Shown: positions 9,436-41,988 of the stretch, one piece after another
Position numbering within the stretch: the first letter of the stretch is position 1
Layout of the letters: each line of letters begins with the position of its first letter
IMG/VR virus record: IMGVR_UViG_3300020202_000111
Location: 1 to 45,047 of that record
Strand: one strand, 5' to 3'
Source: a virus
Length of the DNA stretch: 45,047 nucleotides
Notes under the pieces: model-generated
What the model saw: only the letters and a program-made list of their open reading frames with translations
Database searches by the model: none
What the model was told of the DNA's origin: nothing
Translations under genes and position numbers: made by a program

Positions 9436-9462
9436 TACAAAAGCCCGGCTCATCACCGGGCT
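9436..9462 (-). terminator. Rho-independent terminator of the leftward gene 9481-10248
   Basis: The stem agcccgg/ccgggct (9442-9448 with 9456-9462) is followed, on the minus strand, by a T-rich run (ttttgtattgtt). It sits 19 bases after the stop of the leftward gene. On the plus strand it lacks a T-run but may still slow readthrough. Confidence 0.75.
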
Positions 9463-9480: not shown

Positions 9481-10248
9481 TCAGTTCTGAGTTCTACCCC
9501 AGCGCTTTTCAGCATCGGCACGGCGGATCAACCATGTCTTGCCGGACTGACGCGCTGGTATTGCTCCCGAATCAATCGCGTCCTGGACAGTCTGGCGATG
9601 GATGCCATAAGCAGAGGCGATCTCCTGCTTGGTTATTGTTTCGTTCAGAGGATCGGGCATTGGCACAAAGGCGGTTCGCAGATCGGCGCGGCGGTAAATG
9701 TCATCACCTCGATACTGCCAGATTTGTTCAGTGCTGTAGTGCGGCGCTTCGTCGTGTCCTGCTCCGTATCCGCCATCATCGGTGTAAGTCTCGATGGTGC
9801 AGCCCAAGCGCAGCAGGGTTGCGGTATCTGTATCACTAACGGGGATCGTGTTAGTCTCTGCTGCAATGCGGGCAATCTCCGCTTGACGCTCAGACTCGAT
9901 GCGTGCCTCGGCGGCTGCAAATTCCTCATCTTCGGTCAGCATTCCCGCATCGCGCAGGTTGCCGCGCACTACCATGTCGATCATCTCTTTCTCGAAGGGC
10001 ACTGTGTCGCGATACCGAAGGCGCTCGATTTCGCGTGCGAGTTCGCGGTCGAGTTCGCTCTCCGTGAGGAGAGGCGAAGTTGTATAAACTACCTGAGCAT
10101 GAAAATATCCCGTGTCGTAAAGTGGATCCGGGCGGAGTGGCGTGAACACCCCGTCATCGACAGTAGTGGGCTTGGTTGTATCAACGATATAGCCAATGTA
10201 ACCCCGTCCATCGCGAAGCCGAAACTTAAAACTCTCGTACTTGTCCAT
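9481..10248 (-). CDS. Two-part protein with C-terminal excisionase-type HTH, 255 aa
   Basis: The N-terminal 200 residues are unrecognised and acidic, with a central helical, probably coiled region rich in Glu, Arg and Ala. The last 55 residues are a MerR/excisionase-like HTH (ITKQEIASAYGIHRQTV then ARQSGKTWLIRRADAEKRW). It shares about 31 of 54 residues with the stand-alone protein at 12377-12568. The gene has its own promoter with two palindromic operators (10263-10318) and its own terminator, an independently controlled unit set against the early genes. An AGGGGA lies before the start. A regulator that may act on its own promoter is inferred. Confidence 0.7.
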   Translation of the reverse strand: MDKYESFKFRLRDGRGYIGYIVDTTKPTTVDDGVFTPLRPDPLYDTGYFHAQVVYTTSPLLTESELDRELAREIERLRYRDTVPFEKEMIDMVVRGNLRDAGMLTEDEEFAAAEARIESERQAEIARIAAETNTIPVSDTDTATLLRLGCTIETYTDDGGYGAGHDEAPHYSTEQIWQYRGDDIYRRADLRTAFVPMPDPLNETITKQEIASAYGIHRQTVQDAIDSGAIPARQSGKTWLIRRADAEKRWGRTQN

Positions 10249-10262
10249 TTTAACTCCCCTGT

Positions 10263-10318
10263 CTTACAAATGTAAGGTATCTTGTGAATACTTTAGCACA
10301 CTTACAAATGTAAGTCAA
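10263..10318 (-). promoter_or_regulatory. Leftward promoter with two identical palindromic operators
   Basis: On the minus strand TTGACT (10313-10318), a 17-base spacer and TAAAGT (10290-10295) form a sigma70-type promoter for the gene starting at 10248. The 14-base dyad cttacaaatgtaag occurs twice, at 10301-10314 (covering the spacer and touching -35) and 10263-10276 (just downstream of the start point). Two identical dyads there imply repression. Confidence 0.75.
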
Positions 10319-10357: not shown

Positions 10358-10417
10358 CGTCATGATATTGGAATAAGTAGCGATAAGCCCCAATATCGTT
10401 ACTTATTCAACATGACG
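10358..10417. other. 60-bp imperfect dyad between divergent genes
   Basis: Outer arms of 7 bp (10358-10364 with 10411-10417) and an inner stem of 14 bp with one G.T pair (10372-10385 with 10394-10407) surround an 8-base loop. A competing 8-bp pairing also exists (10364-10371 with 10390-10397). It is A/T-rich and lies between the leftward gene and the rightward cassette at 10515. It may be an operator, a bidirectional terminator or a structured RNA; the sequence does not decide. A possible -10 (tatact, 10457-10462) for the rightward genes has no good -35. Confidence 0.55.
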
Positions 10418-10514
10418 ATGATTAAACAACGCCGCGTCGAAAACACGATTTCATCGTATACTATTGTTCGCACGGGCGAATATTCTGCGGGCGCGGACTA
10501 TTGAGGACTGAGGA

Positions 10515-10793
10515 ATGAGTGACACACTAAGCGACTTTGACGCAAAATCTATCGCGATGCTCGATCTAGGATGGAAACTGTCAGCAAACACCACGATCCT
10601 CCGTGTAAGGCGCGGCGTCGAAAGGGTATATCTACCGCCTGCAGTCAGCCCTGAGGGTGTGCGCTTTACATCCGGGGAGGAAATGGCTGTCGGCAAGCAG
10701 GAGACGCCGCACGAAGTGATTTTGAGTCCCATTGGAAAGGGTAGACGACTGGGTTGGTGCCCAGAACTTGATACATTGGTGGTGAGTGAATGA
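10515..10793 (+). CDS. Hypothetical protein, 92 aa
   Basis: It is the first gene of the rightward cassette 10515-12119. Sequence suggests a short N-terminal helix and a beta-rich body (TTILRVRRGVERVYLPP). Not recognised. An upstream GAGGA fits the ATG at 10515. The stop overlaps the next start as ATGA. Confidence 0.6.
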   Translation: MSDTLSDFDAKSIAMLDLGWKLSANTTILRVRRGVERVYLPPAVSPEGVRFTSGEEMAVGKQETPHEVILSPIGKGRRLGWCPELDTLVVSE

Positions 10794-12119: not shown

Positions 12120-12161
12120 TACCACACCATTGTCATAATTAAATCAGAATTAGTTGCACCG

Positions 12162-12195
12162 CCCTCGTTTATCCTGTAAGCGAGGGTATTTTGAT
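12162..12195 (+). terminator. Rho-independent terminator of the rightward cassette
   Basis: A 10-bp stem with one G.T pair (12162-12171 with 12177-12186), a 5-base loop, then tattttgatt. It follows the stop at 12119. The 170 bases beyond it, up to 12361, show no convincing gene. Confidence 0.75.
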
Positions 12196-12361
12196 TCAGG
12201 GGCGCGAGAACCGTAGCTGCGGTGAGTAGCGCCCCGTCCACCCGACAGCGCGCAACCATGCACGCCGCAACACGAAACGCTGAACAGCGGGCGCGGCACA
12301 TACGGAGAGTGCTCCACAACAAGCGCGCGGGGCGGGTGGGAATAAGGGCAGGCACATTACA

Positions 12362-12387
12362 AATCAAAACCCCGCACTAGGCGGGGT
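12362..12387 (-). terminator. Rho-independent terminator of the leftward pair 12377-12759
   Basis: The stem accccgc/gcggggt (12369-12375 with 12381-12387) has a 5-base loop and is followed, on the minus strand, by ttttgattt. It overlaps the last codons of the leftward HTH gene. Confidence 0.75.
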
Positions 12388-12568
12388 CTGTGGGGCGCTT
12401 CCATCGGGCTTCAGCGTCGGCTTTACGTATCAGCCATGTGCCGCCGGACTGCCGGGCGTCGATGACCTTGCGGCGGATCGCATCGATGACGGTGAAGCGG
12501 GAGATGTTGAATGTCTCTGCCGCTTCCTTCGCGGTCATCACTTCGGTGAGTGGGTCTGGTGTGGTCAT
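12377..12568 (-). CDS. Small excisionase/MerR-type HTH protein, 63 aa
   Basis: Almost the whole protein is one HTH domain: MTAKEAAETFNISRFTVIDAI then DARQSGGTWLIRKADAEARW. It is a stand-alone relative of the C-terminal domain of the protein at 9481-10248. Such domains recognise short DNA sites, act as recombination directionality factors or regulators, and are common in phages. Its start overlaps the stop of the gene before it by one base (TAATG). Its likely target is the operator at 12805-12820 (inference). Confidence 0.75.
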   Translation of the reverse strand: MTTPDPLTEVMTAKEAAETFNISRFTVIDAIRRKVIDARQSGGTWLIRKADAEARWKRPTDPA

Positions 12569-12759
12569 TAGCGGCTGTTCCGCAGTCCCCAGTGGGCTTC
12601 GTAGATGGCTTCGCTCTTGACCTTGATGTCCTTCATCGCGAGGGCGCTGATCTTGCGGGCGGCGCTGGTGCGGGCGGCTTCTGCGGTTGCGCCGTAAGCT
12701 ACGGGCTTTCCACTCTTGCGGTTGTAGGCTACGTACTGGGTGTTTGCGTTCTGGTTCAT
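12568..12759 (-). CDS. Small hypothetical protein, 63 aa
   Basis: First gene of the leftward two-gene operon. It is basic, with a beta-like first half (QYVAYNRKSGKPVAYG) and Ala-rich helix (TAEAARTSAARKISAL). A GGAG precedes the start. No family recognised; pairing with an HTH protein under an operator-bearing promoter suggests a control module. Confidence 0.6.
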   Translation of the reverse strand: MNQNANTQYVAYNRKSGKPVAYGATAEAARTSAARKISALAMKDIKVKSEAIYEAHWGLRNSR

Positions 12760-12798
12760 TTTCGTGTCTCCGTGTGCTGTATTTCTTACTATGACAAC

Positions 12799-12827
12799 AT
12801 CATACTACACAATTGTGTAGATGTCAA
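12799..12827 (-). promoter_or_regulatory. Strong leftward promoter with a perfect palindrome as its spacer
   Basis: On the minus strand TTGACA (12822-12827), a 17-base spacer and TATGAT (12799-12804). The spacer contains the perfect 16-bp palindrome ctacacaattgtgtag (12805-12820), placed where a bound dimer would exclude RNA polymerase. It drives 12759-12377. Confidence 0.85.
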
Positions 12828-12852
12828 GCATTTGATAGGGTGAATCTGGAAA

Positions 12853-14136
12853 TTGGCTGAAACTCGTACAGGCTGGGCAAATCGCATCATAGGACACGGC
12901 GAGGAAGACCCGGAGCAGCTCCTGGCGAACCCTCGCAATTGGCGTATCCACCCGAAGCCGCAGCAGGATGCGCTGGCAAAGGTACTCGACACAGTAGGTT
13001 GGGTATCCGATGTGATCGTGAACCAGCAGACCGGGCATGTGGTTGATGGTCACCTGCGTGTGGCGATGGCAATCAGCAACCGGGAGCTGAGCGTTCCGGT
13101 GGTCTATGTCGATTTGACCGAAGACGAGGAAAAGCTGGTGCTGGCATCGCTGGACACGCTGGCGCACATGGCGGTCACTGACGACGAGATGCTGGCCGCG
13201 CTGCTGAATGACATCAAGGCGGGCGATGAAGGGCTGAGCGACCTGGTGGCAGGGCTGGCGGCGGAGATGGGCGCGGTACTGGATGCGACCGACCCGCCCG
13301 GTGATCCGGGCGCGCAGCTTGACCGCGCTAAAGCACTCCGTGAACAGTACGGGGTAGAACGCGGACAGGTGTGGGTGATTGGTCGTCACCGTTTGATGTG
13401 TGGCGATAGTTATTCAGAGGAACACCGGGCGGCGCTGCTGAACGGCGCAACGCCCGATATGCTGCACACTGACCCGCCGTATGGCATCAACATCGTTAAT
13501 CCCGTAGACGGGCAAAGCCGAGCCGCCGTCGGCGGCTCAAAGCCTTTCGGCGGAACGTCTGGCACAAAGCGCAAAAGCGGCGCTGCGTTCCGCAGCGCCG
13601 CGCCAACGGTTCCCGTTGGCGCGGGTCACATTGTTCAGAGCAATCTCTACCCGGTCATCGAAGGTGACGACCGCCCTTTTGACCCGGCGTTTCTGATGGA
13701 CCTTGCGCCCATCGTGATCCTGTGGGGCGGTAATTACTTTACTGACAAGCTACCTGTGTCGTCCTGCTGGATTTGTTGGGACAAGCGCGAGGACATCACC
13801 CGCAATAACTTTGCGGATGGCGAACTGGCGTGGACGAACATGGACAAGCCGATGCGTATCTTCCATCACCTATGGAACGGTCTGCACAAGGGCAGCCAGC
13901 ACGGAGAGCGCCGGACACACCCGACCGAGAAGCCCGTCGCGTTATTCGCAGAGATTGGCAAGATGTTCTGCCCGCAGGGGATATGGCTGGACTTGTTCGC
14001 GGGCACAGGGGCGCAGATTGTGGCGGCAGAGCAGGTAGGTACAACGTGTTACGCGATGGAATGGGAGCCGCTGTATGTGGCAACCACCATTCAGCGGTTA
14101 GTTGATTTGGGCTTAACGCCGCGACTGGCTGACTAA
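12853..14136 (+). CDS. ParB-like domain fused to DNA methyltransferase, 427 aa
   Basis: The N-terminal part is a ParB/Spo0J-type nuclease-like domain: ANPRNWRIHP, then VVDGHLR near residue 63. The C-terminal part is a beta-class methyltransferase with TDPPYGI near 206, NPTEKP-like THPTEKPV, and FAGTGAQ near 381. This fusion is common in phages, usually close to terminase as here. It probably modifies adenine or cytosine-N4 in phage DNA. The start is a TTG at 12853; homologues begin at the same WANRI motif. A variable stretch after DPPYG is encoded by three hairpins (13520-13624). Confidence 0.88.
   Translation: MAETRTGWANRIIGHGEEDPEQLLANPRNWRIHPKPQQDALAKVLDTVGWVSDVIVNQQTGHVVDGHLRVAMAISNRELSVPVVYVDLTEDEEKLVLASLDTLAHMAVTDDEMLAALLNDIKAGDEGLSDLVAGLAAEMGAVLDATDPPGDPGAQLDRAKALREQYGVERGQVWVIGRHRLMCGDSYSEEHRAALLNGATPDMLHTDPPYGINIVNPVDGQSRAAVGGSKPFGGTSGTKRKSGAAFRSAAPTVPVGAGHIVQSNLYPVIEGDDRPFDPAFLMDLAPIVILWGGNYFTDKLPVSSCWICWDKREDITRNNFADGELAWTNMDKPMRIFHHLWNGLHKGSQHGERRTHPTEKPVALFAEIGKMFCPQGIWLDLFAGTGAQIVAAEQVGTTCYAMEWEPLYVATTIQRLVDLGLTPRLAD
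13520..13624. repeat. Three tandem GC-rich hairpins inside the methyltransferase gene
   Basis: Perfect stems of 8 bp (13520-13527/13531-13538), 11 bp (13577-13587/13591-13601) and 12 bp (13598-13609/13613-13624), all with three-base loops (gtc, ttc, ttc). They encode a segment between motif IV and the next conserved block (VIEGDDRPFDP), where the protein can tolerate insertion. Confidence 0.8.
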
Positions 14137-33222: not shown

Positions 33223-33885
33223 CTACCCCTCCTTGACCTTATGCCCGTTCTGGCTAACGGAATCACCGCGAATTGACAGCCCTAACTCGTCAGCGTAGTT
33301 GTACACCGTGCCCCGACTCTTGCCAATCGCCTTAGCCAGTTGTGACACTTTCATGTCAGGCGATTCCGTCAGGAGCCGTGCCAGTTCTGCCATTGCCTGT
33401 TCTTTTGAAGTGTCAGAAACGTTGTCAGTTGACGCTTTTCTTGACGCTTGACGTTCAACACGCTTTGCCACCTTTTCGGCCTCCTTGACTGCGTGTTGAA
33501 TGTCAGCGCTCACAACCTCTGACAGGTAGATTACCATAAGAGGTAACACCGCTGACATGATAAACGGTCGCAGATTAGCTAACACCCCGGCGCGCAATAG
33601 CTCCGACATGTTTTCAAGCCCGTACACAAGATTGGCATATGTTGACACCAGACAGAACAGAATAACACCTGACCACAACCAGACGGTCGGGCGCTTCTGA
33701 GCTTTCCGGCGCTGAATACCGAATGCCAGCGCCGCGATACCAATATCGACAGCGACGGCCTGAACATAGCCTGATAACAGATTGCCCTTCGAGAGGGTGG
33801 CAAAGGACCATGCGACATGCTGCAAACTACCAGCCATTGCGCCGAATAGAGCAACCCATAGTGCGATTAGTAGAACTCTGTTCAT
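33223..33885 (-). CDS. Membrane-anchored HTH protein, 220 aa
   Basis: The N-terminal 130 residues contain about four membrane helices (LLIALWVALFGAMAGSL, LSGYVQAVAVDIGIAALAF, LWSGVILFCLVSTYANLVY, LRPFIMSAVLPLMVIYLS). A charged, coiled linker follows (VKEAEKVAKRVERQASRKA). The C-terminal 60 residues form an HTH (MKVSQLAKAIGKSRGTVYNYADEL). A DNA-binding domain tethered to the membrane suggests a sensor-regulator or a tether of phage DNA. It overlaps the HNH gene by ATGA. Confidence 0.7.
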   Translation of the reverse strand: MNRVLLIALWVALFGAMAGSLQHVAWSFATLSKGNLLSGYVQAVAVDIGIAALAFGIQRRKAQKRPTVWLWSGVILFCLVSTYANLVYGLENMSELLRAGVLANLRPFIMSAVLPLMVIYLSEVVSADIQHAVKEAEKVAKRVERQASRKASTDNVSDTSKEQAMAELARLLTESPDMKVSQLAKAIGKSRGTVYNYADELGLSIRGDSVSQNGHKVKEG

Positions 33886-34559
33886 TGTTTATCGTCCTCG
33901 AATAGCGATGTCTGCTTCATGTGTTCAAGTGGGCTGATCTGGACAGCAAAAACCATGCCAGCCTCGTCGGGGGTACGGTCTTTTTTGCGTGAGTTGCACG
34001 ACCTACAGGAAGGCACAATATTGGTCACGGTATAAGCACCGCCCTTTGAAACCGGAATGACGTGCTCTTGTTGCAGCTTTCCGCACTCGCTTTCGTGCCT
34101 ACCGCAGTAAACACAGCAATTGCCTGATTGCCCTAAGAGCCATTCCCATTCTTGCTTGGTTAGCTGTGCGATTGCCCGCTTTAATGCCGCCTTGCGCCGA
34201 TGATAGTGTTCGCGATACTTCCACAGATGGGTTGCTCGGTGGACTCGCGCCTGATGTCGAACACGTTCAGGGTTTTGTGCTTTCCACTGGGCTACCCTCA
34301 GCGATTCTTTTGATGCGTGTTTTATGCTGTACCTTTTCGCTTGCTGTTTCGTGCCCTCGGGGTTGTTCTTTCGCCATTCTTGGTTGTACCGTCTTCGGTA
34401 TTCTTTGTTTTGGCTGCGGTGTTTCTGCCAGCAAGGTTTGCACCAATAATTCAACCCGTCGGGCGACTTACCGTCCTTTGAGTATTGGTCTAGGGGTCGT
34501 GGATTGCCACACTTGCGACATACTTTCGTGACAGTTTGTTCTGATGTAGAATCTTGCAT
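33882..34559 (-). CDS. HNH endonuclease with N-terminal zinc knuckle, 225 aa
   Basis: The N-terminus has CRKCG and CKPCW (about residues 13 and 40), then a basic helical region. The C-terminal HNH domain reads CVYCGRHESECGKLQQEHVIPVSKG, then NIVPSCRSCNSRKKDR. It is a longer relative of the protein at 38326-38793. The start is set at 34559: GGAGGGG lies nine bases before this ATG, and the ATG at 34577 is part of that sequence. It may be a homing-type nicking enzyme or aid packaging. Confidence 0.82.
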   Translation of the reverse strand: MQDSTSEQTVTKVCRKCGNPRPLDQYSKDGKSPDGLNYWCKPCWQKHRSQNKEYRRRYNQEWRKNNPEGTKQQAKRYSIKHASKESLRVAQWKAQNPERVRHQARVHRATHLWKYREHYHRRKAALKRAIAQLTKQEWEWLLGQSGNCCVYCGRHESECGKLQQEHVIPVSKGGAYTVTNIVPSCRSCNSRKKDRTPDEAGMVFAVQISPLEHMKQTSLFEDDKQ

Positions 34560-34640
34560 ATAGCTTTGCCCCTCCACTGGGCAGAGGACCAGCGGACGTT
34601 AGCGCGTCGCGGCTGGTGTTTTTATTGGATACATATGGTC

Positions 34641-35296: not shown

Positions 35297-35327
35297 GCCG
35301 CGAGTCTACGCAATGTTGCGCAGAACG

Positions 35328-36056: not shown

Positions 36057-36082
36057 CAATTCCTCACCCAGGTCTGTAATGT

Positions 36083-36113
36083 AGTATAAGGGCGATTTCG
36101 TCATTCGTGACGA
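36083..36113 (-). promoter_or_regulatory. Repressor promoter and operator 1
   Basis: The -10 TATACT lies at 36083-36088 on the minus strand, with no good -35. The dyad tcgtcattcgtgacga (36098-36113, 6-bp arms) covers the region upstream of the -10. A weak promoter beside an operator suits an autoregulated repressor. Confidence 0.6.
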
Positions 36114-36160
36114 GTAATTGCGCCACAAACGGACAAACCAAAATATTACCACACAACCGC

Positions 36161-36190
36161 TTGACAGGTTAACCACTCTTATGATATTCT
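36161..36190 (+). promoter_or_regulatory. Rightward early promoter
   Basis: Consensus TTGACA (36161-36166), an 18-base spacer starting with the palindrome ggttaacc (36167-36174), and TATTCT (36185-36190). It would drive 36233 and the whole early operon. Confidence 0.65.
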
Positions 36191-36195
36191 ATTGA

Positions 36196-36211
36196 TCGTC
36201 ACTTGTAACGA
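36196..36211. promoter_or_regulatory. Operator 2
   Basis: tcgtcacttgtaacga matches operator 1 at 13 of 16 bases. It lies at about the transcription start of the rightward promoter, where a bound repressor would block initiation. Confidence 0.6.
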
Positions 36212-36232
36212 TTTTTGACGTGAGGGATGATG

Positions 36233-36460
36233 ATGCGTAAAGGCAGAACACAGTTGGTCGGCGTGAAGGTCACACCAGAAGAAAGCCTTGCTCTGGACTG
36301 GCAGGTGCAGCAGGATCGCGCTGCCGGGCGCGACGCAACCCGAAGTACGCTTCTCTATGAAATGGCATTGCGCGGCAACCTGCGTCAGCTTGTGAATTCT
36401 TATCGTGCCTCGAATTCGTCACTAGAGACGAACGGCGGCGGAACGGGTAACGCCTCATGA
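36233..36460 (+). CDS. Small basic protein, possible ribbon-helix-helix regulator, 75 aa
   Basis: The N-terminus RKGRTQLVGVKVTPEESLALDWQ is a basic strand followed by a helix, and RDATRSTLLYEMALRGNLRQL a second helix, as in CopG/Arc-type ribbon-helix-helix proteins. Three ATG codons stand in a row (36227, 36230, 36233); the last is best spaced from the GAGGG. It is the first gene right of the switch and may act like Cro. The stop overlaps the next gene as ATGA. Confidence 0.6.
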   Translation: MRKGRTQLVGVKVTPEESLALDWQVQQDRAAGRDATRSTLLYEMALRGNLRQLVNSYRASNSSLETNGGGTGNAS

Positions 36461-40906: not shown

Positions 40907-41560
40907 TCACGGCGCTACCGTAGGACTGGACATCGCAGGCCATTCAAGCGAATGGGCCAGCACCGCGTCCCAGAAAGCGTAATCGCCTGCGTCCCAGTTA
41001 TGGTTGCAGGTGGCAATATCGGCAACACCGTCCTGGTAGATCGCGTCATCTTGCAGCCGCGCCCCGTCGTATAACTGGTAGAAGCCCCGGCTGCACGCCA
41101 GTATGCCGGACAGGGTGAGCTCATGTGACTCTTCGAAGATGGCGGGCGGGCGCATCGCGGCGATTTCCTCTACACCCACATCGAACTCGCCAAAGTACAG
41201 TTCCAGCAGGGCCTGCCACGTCGGATCATACTGAGAGACTTTGCCCTCGATGTACTGCCCGAAGGTGGTATCAATATCGGCTTTCACAGTACGCAGATAC
41301 CAGGCGGTGTCATCGCGGCGATTGGCATACTGAAGCTGTGCATCATCAGATGTTGGCACAGGAGTAATCACCGCTTCAGCAGCGGTTGCCGTATGCGTCA
41401 CAACCGGCGTAAACGTCGGCGGCACTTCGAAGGTGGGGGTGATGGGGCGGGCGAATGTGGGCGGTATCGTAGGCAGTACAAACAGCGTTGCGGTCGGGGC
41501 AGTACTGGATCCGCAGGCAATCGCAGAGAGCAGGATAAACGGTAGGGCGATCCGTTTCAT
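40907..41560 (-). CDS. Lipoprotein with Thr/Pro-rich linker, 217 aa
   Basis: A signal peptide (KRIALPFILLSAIAC) with lipobox SAIAC gives lipidated Cys16. A Thr/Pro-rich linker of about 45 residues follows (TPTFEVPPTFTPVVT), then a helical domain with two cysteines (LACSRGF, ATCNHNW). It should sit on the outer face of the cytoplasmic membrane. First gene of a three-gene leftward operon of envelope proteins, as in lysogenic conversion or superinfection exclusion loci; that role is inferred. It has no clear ribosome site and its -10 lies only nine bases before the start. Confidence 0.7.
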   Translation of the reverse strand: MKRIALPFILLSAIACGSSTAPTATLFVLPTIPPTFARPITPTFEVPPTFTPVVTHTATAAEAVITPVPTSDDAQLQYANRRDDTAWYLRTVKADIDTTFGQYIEGKVSQYDPTWQALLELYFGEFDVGVEEIAAMRPPAIFEESHELTLSGILACSRGFYQLYDGARLQDDAIYQDGVADIATCNHNWDAGDYAFWDAVLAHSLEWPAMSSPTVAP

Positions 41561-41568
41561 GGGAAGCC

Positions 41569-41574
41569 ATTATA
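41569..41574 (-). promoter_or_regulatory. Consensus -10 giving a nearly leaderless lipoprotein mRNA
   Basis: The minus strand reads TATAAT here. A start point about seven bases on would lie within two or three bases of the ATG at 41560, leaving no room for a ribosome binding site. The -35 is poor (ttttgc at a 17-base spacing). Confidence 0.5.
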
Positions 41575-41609
41575 GGAATGTTTACGGCAATGCAAAATCG
41601 GAGGTTGTG

Positions 41610-41843
41610 ATGGGATTTGCAACTACAGCGCTGTCGCTTACAATCGACGGCGTGCCTCAGAATTTCCTCACGGTTGAGGAAGTCATGGAGCGGCTCGGTT
41701 TCAAGCATCGGCAGAATGTATACGATGCCATCAAACGTAAGCAGCTCACGGGCTTCCGAGACGACCGCCGCATGTTATGGATTTCAGAAGAGTCGGTAAA
41801 CAATTACCGGGCTCCACGACGCGGCAGACCACCTCAAAAATAA
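41610..41843 (+). CDS. Small excisionase-type HTH protein, 77 aa
   Basis: FLTVEEVMERLGFKHRQNVYDAIKRKQLTGFRDDRRMLWISEESVNNY is a complete MerR/excisionase-type winged HTH. The tail is basic (APRRGRPPQK). GAGG lies seven bases before ATG 41610; longer openings run into the divergent lipoprotein gene. Such proteins serve as directionality factors or regulators. The promoter with TTTCTTG sites begins at its stop, a likely place for it to act. Confidence 0.7.
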   Translation: MGFATTALSLTIDGVPQNFLTVEEVMERLGFKHRQNVYDAIKRKQLTGFRDDRRMLWISEESVNNYRAPRRGRPPQK

Positions 41844-41908
41844 TTTCTTGAAACTCTGCAAATTGGGTATACTAATTTCTTGACACGCACAAGAAACGGG
41901 TGTATGAT
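41841..41908 (+). promoter_or_regulatory. Strong rightward promoter with three TTTCTTG half-sites
   Basis: TTGACA (41880-41885), 17-base spacer, TATGAT (41903-41908). The 11-mer taatttcttga occurs at 41841-41851 and 41873-41883 (32 bases apart, three helical turns). tttcttg at 41876-41882 pairs as an inverted repeat with caagaaa at 41890-41896 across the -35. The 80-base leader to 41989 contains an imperfect stem. Confidence 0.75.
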
Positions 41909-41988
41909 GTTTTGTAGATAACAGACACGCGGAAGGGCCAGCGTTCGCAGCGCTAGCCCCTCCACTTACCAGACAAGAGAGGTAGCTC

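Follow-up and report, generated by a model that had tools for sequence, protein, structure and literature searches.

Which protein reads the perfect palindrome that fills the spacer of a leftward, near-consensus promoter in a phage genome, and what does it control there? We addressed this question for a leftward unit, here called island 2, in a linear viral contig taken from an IMG/VR record (the window, 45,047 bases in full), which comes from a phage whose plus strand encodes a terminase, a portal protein and a tail tape-measure protein. The most likely reading, to which we give about an even chance, is that island 2 is an autonomous, moron-like unit that is negatively autoregulated.

A leftward unit between two rightward blocks

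Island 2 lies between two blocks of rightward genes, one closed by a terminator at 12161-12187 (plus strand) and the other running from 12853. The latter begins with a ParB-like/DNA methyltransferase gene with a TTG start (12853-14136, plus strand), which is divergent from island 2 and is the first before the terminase genes. Over the interval 12161-12853, a strong terminator ends the rightward transcript and no consensus rightward promoter is seen ahead of the ParB-methyltransferase/late block; expression of the late genes may thus depend on a promoter that is non-consensus or activated.

The promoter of island 2 is of the sigma-70 type, TTGACA-17-TATGAT, and matches the consensus at 11 of 12 positions. 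Read on the minus strand from 12827 to 12799, it is TTGACA-T-CTACACAATTGTGTAG-TATGAT, and the perfect 16-bp palindrome (12805-12820), a putative operator, takes up bases 2-17 of the 17-nt spacer. Two overlapping 63-codon genes follow on the minus strand. The upstream one encodes P0002 (12568-12759; 63 aa), to which no function was assigned, and has a GGAG 8 nt before its ATG; the second, joined to it by a TAATG overlap, encodes P0001 (12377-12568; 63 aa), a stand-alone excisionase-type winged helix-turn-helix (HTH) protein. The unit has its own intrinsic terminator on the minus strand (12389-12367), whose 9-bp stem leads into a short T-rich tail. Codon usage in both genes resembles that of the main genes of the phage (scores of +23.8 bits for P0002 and +16.8 bits for P0001), whereas that of the overlapping plus-strand ORFs does not (-24 and -21). 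The G+C content of the coding part is 61.4%, and the 1-kb windows of the phage range from about 51 to 62%. An initial annotation of this DNA had described a leftward promoter with a palindromic spacer, an operon for a 63-residue protein of no assigned function and a stand-alone HTH protein, and a terminator belonging to the unit; the sequence and the coding scores confirm all of these elements.

The palindrome by itself is unremarkable. It is the sole perfect palindrome of at least 16 bp in the window, and about 0.9 are expected per shuffled window. It is its position that is remarkable, since promoters matching at least 11 of 12 positions number two in the window against 0.1 per shuffled window, and shuffling yields a 16-bp palindrome in only 0.17% of cases for the 93-bp intergenic stretch and in 266 of 1,000,000 cases for the spacer itself. 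Together, the promoter and the palindrome are far beyond chance. The palindrome was also considered as a recombination site and as a known RNA element, and both readings were rejected: the window holds no integrase or resolvase, no Rfam family reached its threshold, and the dyad is upstream of the expected start of the leftward transcript.

Two related HTH domains and a second island

A domain homologous to P0001 forms the C-terminus of P0003 (255 aa; 9481-10248, minus strand), the product of another leftward unit, island 1. This unit has the promoter TTGACT-17-TAAAGT (10290-10318, minus strand), a terminator (9442-9462, minus strand) and an operator-like repeat, CTTACAAATGTAAG, present in two identical copies, one overlapping the promoter (10301-10314) and the other just before gene P0003 (10263-10276). 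The sequence CTTACATTTGTAAG overlaps the promoter spacer, and its identical copy lies 38 bp further, 14 nt before the ATG. The earlier description of two islands with different operators and a shared HTH domain holds, each of them having its own promoter, palindrome and terminator. Between island 1 and the gene at 10515 there is also a nested long inverted repeat (10358-10421; CGTCATG ... GAATAAGTAGCGATA / TATCGTTACTTATTC ... CATGACG), whose plus-strand RNA fold has a z-score of -5.5 and for which an origin, an attachment site and a structured RNA are candidates.

P0001 and P0003 both score above the curated cut-offs of the Pfam family HTH_17 (32.4 and 34.1 bits, respectively, against 27) and of TIGR01764, excise (32.9 and 31.6 against 28.8). 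Over 55 aa, P0001 is 60% identical to the C-terminus of P0003, slightly above the 57% or so first noted. The wing, ARQSGxTWLIRxADAExRW, is nearly identical between the two domains, and the recognition helix differs (SRFTVIDAIRRK vs HRQTVQDAIDSG), a combination that would suit different operators but is no proof of them. At the DNA level the domains are 55% identical; their third codon positions, identical in 20 of 55 cases, are near random (pS of 0.74 vs pN of 0.35), so they did not arise by a recent duplication. The domains are old paralogues or separate acquisitions, held by amino-acid constraint.

No dimerisation segment is evident in P0001. Its neighbour P0002 has no match in Pfam, NCBIfam, PADLOC or PHROGs, with no toxin family recognised, and its single-sequence structure model consists mostly of one long helix, predicted with moderate confidence (mean pLDDT 72, pTM 0.32); the model of P0003 was too poor for use (mean pLDDT 37). 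An assignment to MADS defence (MAD1) was rejected because the matches were weak and typical of the fold (PADLOC E value of 7.5e-4 for P0001; NCBIfam score of 14.2 bits against a cut-off of 80 for P0003). Elsewhere in the window, the region 41433-41965 contains a third, weaker HTH_17 domain (41664-41807, plus strand), which is followed by a further promoter with the sequence TTGACA-17-TATGAT (41880) and by a strong hairpin (41929-41965). A leftward protein (33223-33885) has apparent membrane segments and an HTH at its end, and its gene overlaps the HNH endonuclease gene at 33882-34577.

Relatives of the islands and of the junction

Searches with P0001, P0002, P0003 and the P0001/P0003 alignment returned no close relatives in viral contigs, and annotated phages yielded no relatives of the island proteins. 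Genome contigs gave one remote HTH from a Mollicutes MAG, in a 219-aa protein with two such domains, which was dismissed as an island relative because of its different build and the lack of a comparable island. Plasmids gave HTH proteins only, at about 35-37% identity, and the two that were inspected sit in other contexts. The island 2 operator together with its -35 box had no match in viral contigs; the operator with the -10 box had one match, where an unrelated leftward gene begins in a record lacking any P0001 match, and this was taken as chance. A search with the terminase retrieved 80 loci, all distant (terminase identity of at most 53%), and relatives of P0001 or P0002 are encoded by none of the 80. 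Only 2 of 47 related records contain an HTH_17 match above the cut-off, and in the one inspected it lies in a different setting. In the literature, we found no specific description of an operator-in-spacer pair in this HTH family.

The junction itself has a counterpart in a distantly related viral contig, L006, where a similar ParB-methyltransferase gene is followed by the terminase and a leftward promoter matching the consensus at 12 of 12 positions (TTGACA-17-TATAAT), divergent from the ParB-methyltransferase gene, drives unrelated small genes. In L007, a near-twin of this contig, that promoter and leftward genes recur ahead of the terminase. The stretch from the methyltransferase gene to the -35 box in L006 resembles that of the window (TTTCCA.AT.CACCC), with a score reached in 23 of 2000 shuffles; the resemblance of L007 in this stretch is weaker and not significant. 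Neither promoter spacer is palindromic. Given the same-place promoter, the non-palindromic spacer and the unrelated genes of L006, a leftward promoter may be the ancestral state of this junction and predate the operator/HTH pair, which would then be a feature of this phage; these comparisons are suggestive only. Another viral contig, L050, has two leftward promoters matching at 11 of 12 positions (3071 and 1395), with spacers ending in CACGTGGCA; one of the spacers holds the palindrome TGCCACGTGGCA, another possible spacer operator.

Candidate readers of the palindrome and known systems

In island 2, an operator-like dyad overlaps the promoter of a gene for a DNA-binding protein, and P0001 is the one recognisable DNA-binding protein that the unit encodes. 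We infer that the palindrome is a repressor site and P0001 its binder. RNA polymerase would start at the strong TTGACA/TATGAT promoter, produce a bicistronic mRNA for P0002 and P0001, and stop at 12367; P0001 would then occupy the palindrome that separates the -35 box from the -10 box, block the polymerase and so cap its own level. From there it might influence the divergent ParB-methyltransferase gene as well, which starts 33 nt away. Island 1 would exert the same self-control via its own two operator copies. In both islands, the gene for an HTH_17 domain goes with a palindrome of its own in the promoter spacer, and operators found only at their own islands are what local self-control predicts. 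RdfS and CvkR, compared with P0001 below, supply precedents, the former as an excisionase-type protein on its own promoter and the latter as a small MerR-type repressor on a short palindrome. Against P0001 as the binder, the characterised stand-alone members of its fold, BldC and RdfS, act head-to-tail and not on perfect dyads, a dimerisation segment is not evident in P0001, and the searches gave no homologues that would let operator and HTH be seen to co-vary. We give little credence to a fuller scheme, in which paralogous winged-HTH modules have private spacer palindromes, a 63-aa HTH protein devoid of a dimerisation domain reads a perfect dyad, perhaps with P0002 as its partner, and the site gates the ParB-methyltransferase/late-gene module.

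The initial annotation had proposed a cross-regulated pair, each HTH protein also controlling the other island. The likeness of the two HTH domains and of their wings speaks for this proposal, as does the ACA-N2-TGT core common to both operators; nevertheless, it appears very unlikely, given that the recognition helices differ, that the domains are not recent copies and that neither island contains the operator of the other, even at three mismatches. The island 2 operator is not found elsewhere in the window with up to three mismatches, and the other matches to the island 1 operator at this level (6734 and 34696) lie outside both islands and are about as many as in shuffles. Identity between the two operators amounts to 7 of 16 positions, core included, which is within chance, as 13% of random palindrome pairs reach this value. 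Since each operator is found in one island only, self-regulation is a better fit than cross-regulation of a pair. We regard it as highly improbable that P0001 and P0002 form a type II toxin-antitoxin system in which P0001, the antitoxin, would bind DNA at the palindrome and so repress the operon. A small overlapping gene pair whose second product binds DNA, with a palindrome on its promoter, is what such a system would show; on the other hand, P0002 matches no toxin family in Pfam, NCBIfam or PADLOC (a new family is possible), its predicted fold is mostly a single long helix, and island 1 does not repeat the paired gene arrangement.

Another regulator, of the phage or of its host, could own the palindrome. 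Within the phage, the likeliest owner would be P0004 (34820-35296), a CI-like HTH_3 protein, which would silence island 2 as part of a phage-wide regulon; we consider this unlikely but conceivable. The gene for P0004 has an apparently leaderless start and an 18-bp dyad, CTACGCAA-TG-TTGCGCAG (35306-35323), that fills the spacer of its own weak putative promoter (TTGCGT-16-TAGACT, as read off the sequence), and the first half-site of this dyad equals the island 2 half-site CTACACAA at 7 of 8 positions. However, the two dyads space their half-sites differently (by 2 bp) and disagree at 3 of the 16 arm positions, a match this good is expected about once in the window by chance (a rough estimate), and the similarity was spotted after the fact. 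P0006 (35694-36058), an Xre-type protein, is an unlikely binder because its apparent operators, with the half-site TCGTCA (36098-36113 and 36196-36211), are quite different. The divergent control region of its gene (36059-36230, plus about 36411-36426) has three 16-bp TCGTCA dyads, the third of them, near 36411-36426, read by eye; it looks like a classical repressor/operator region. That a host regulator reads the palindrome, tying island 2 to the physiological state of the host, is quite unlikely: a perfect dyad on a near-consensus promoter would suit any dimeric host regulator equally, but this one is not known to match any regulator box. A Thr/Pro-rich putative lipoprotein is encoded at 40907-41560, in a style that we take to be associated with Chloroflexota, which is a hint to the host only.

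Autoregulation, the reading that we prefer, can be set against several known systems. Like phage morons, island 2 has its own promoter and terminator and stands between phage gene blocks in the opposite orientation. Its genes were not found in the relatives, all of them distant, of which L006 and L007 carry other leftward genes. Its base composition lacks the atypical character of a moron, 61% G+C being ordinary for the phage, and its site may not be a fresh insertion, since L006 has a leftward promoter at the same place. CvkR, the small MerR-type repressor of V-K CAST, binds the short palindrome AnnACATnATGTnnT, which shares an ACA...TGT core with that of island 2 (PMC9938897); unlike P0001, CvkR has a separate dimerisation domain and a C-terminal helix, and it controls a transposon. 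BldC, a 68-aa MerR-like winged HTH protein with no coiled coil (PMC5859096), is about the size of P0001, but binds direct repeats head-to-tail, whereas the candidate site of island 2 is a perfect 16-bp dyad.

Recombination directionality factors of the RdfS/Xis/Cox type are, as P0001 is by its TIGR01764 score, small excisionase-type winged HTH proteins. Neither PF00589 nor PF00239 has a match in the 45-kb record, which may be incomplete, so that P0001, unlike excisionases, has no partner tyrosine integrase or serine recombinase in the window; moreover, the known binding of this fold is head-to-tail, and the island 2 site is a perfect palindrome. If P0001 does read the dyad, it would be an unusually small dyad-binder among stand-alone relatives that act head-to-tail, and the two islands would offer a natural pair in which to study how operator choice is set by the recognition helix while the wing is fixed; otherwise, island 2 is a further self-limited accessory unit from a phage about which little is known. 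The initial annotation had thought a cross-regulated pair of this sort undescribed, but a new kind of system is not supported: RdfS, an excisionase-type winged HTH protein acting head-to-tail, is already known to occupy its own promoter over the -35/-10 region and is an inferred self-repressor (PMC11963761). Island 2 is a neat example of an already known, ordinary kind of gene switch.
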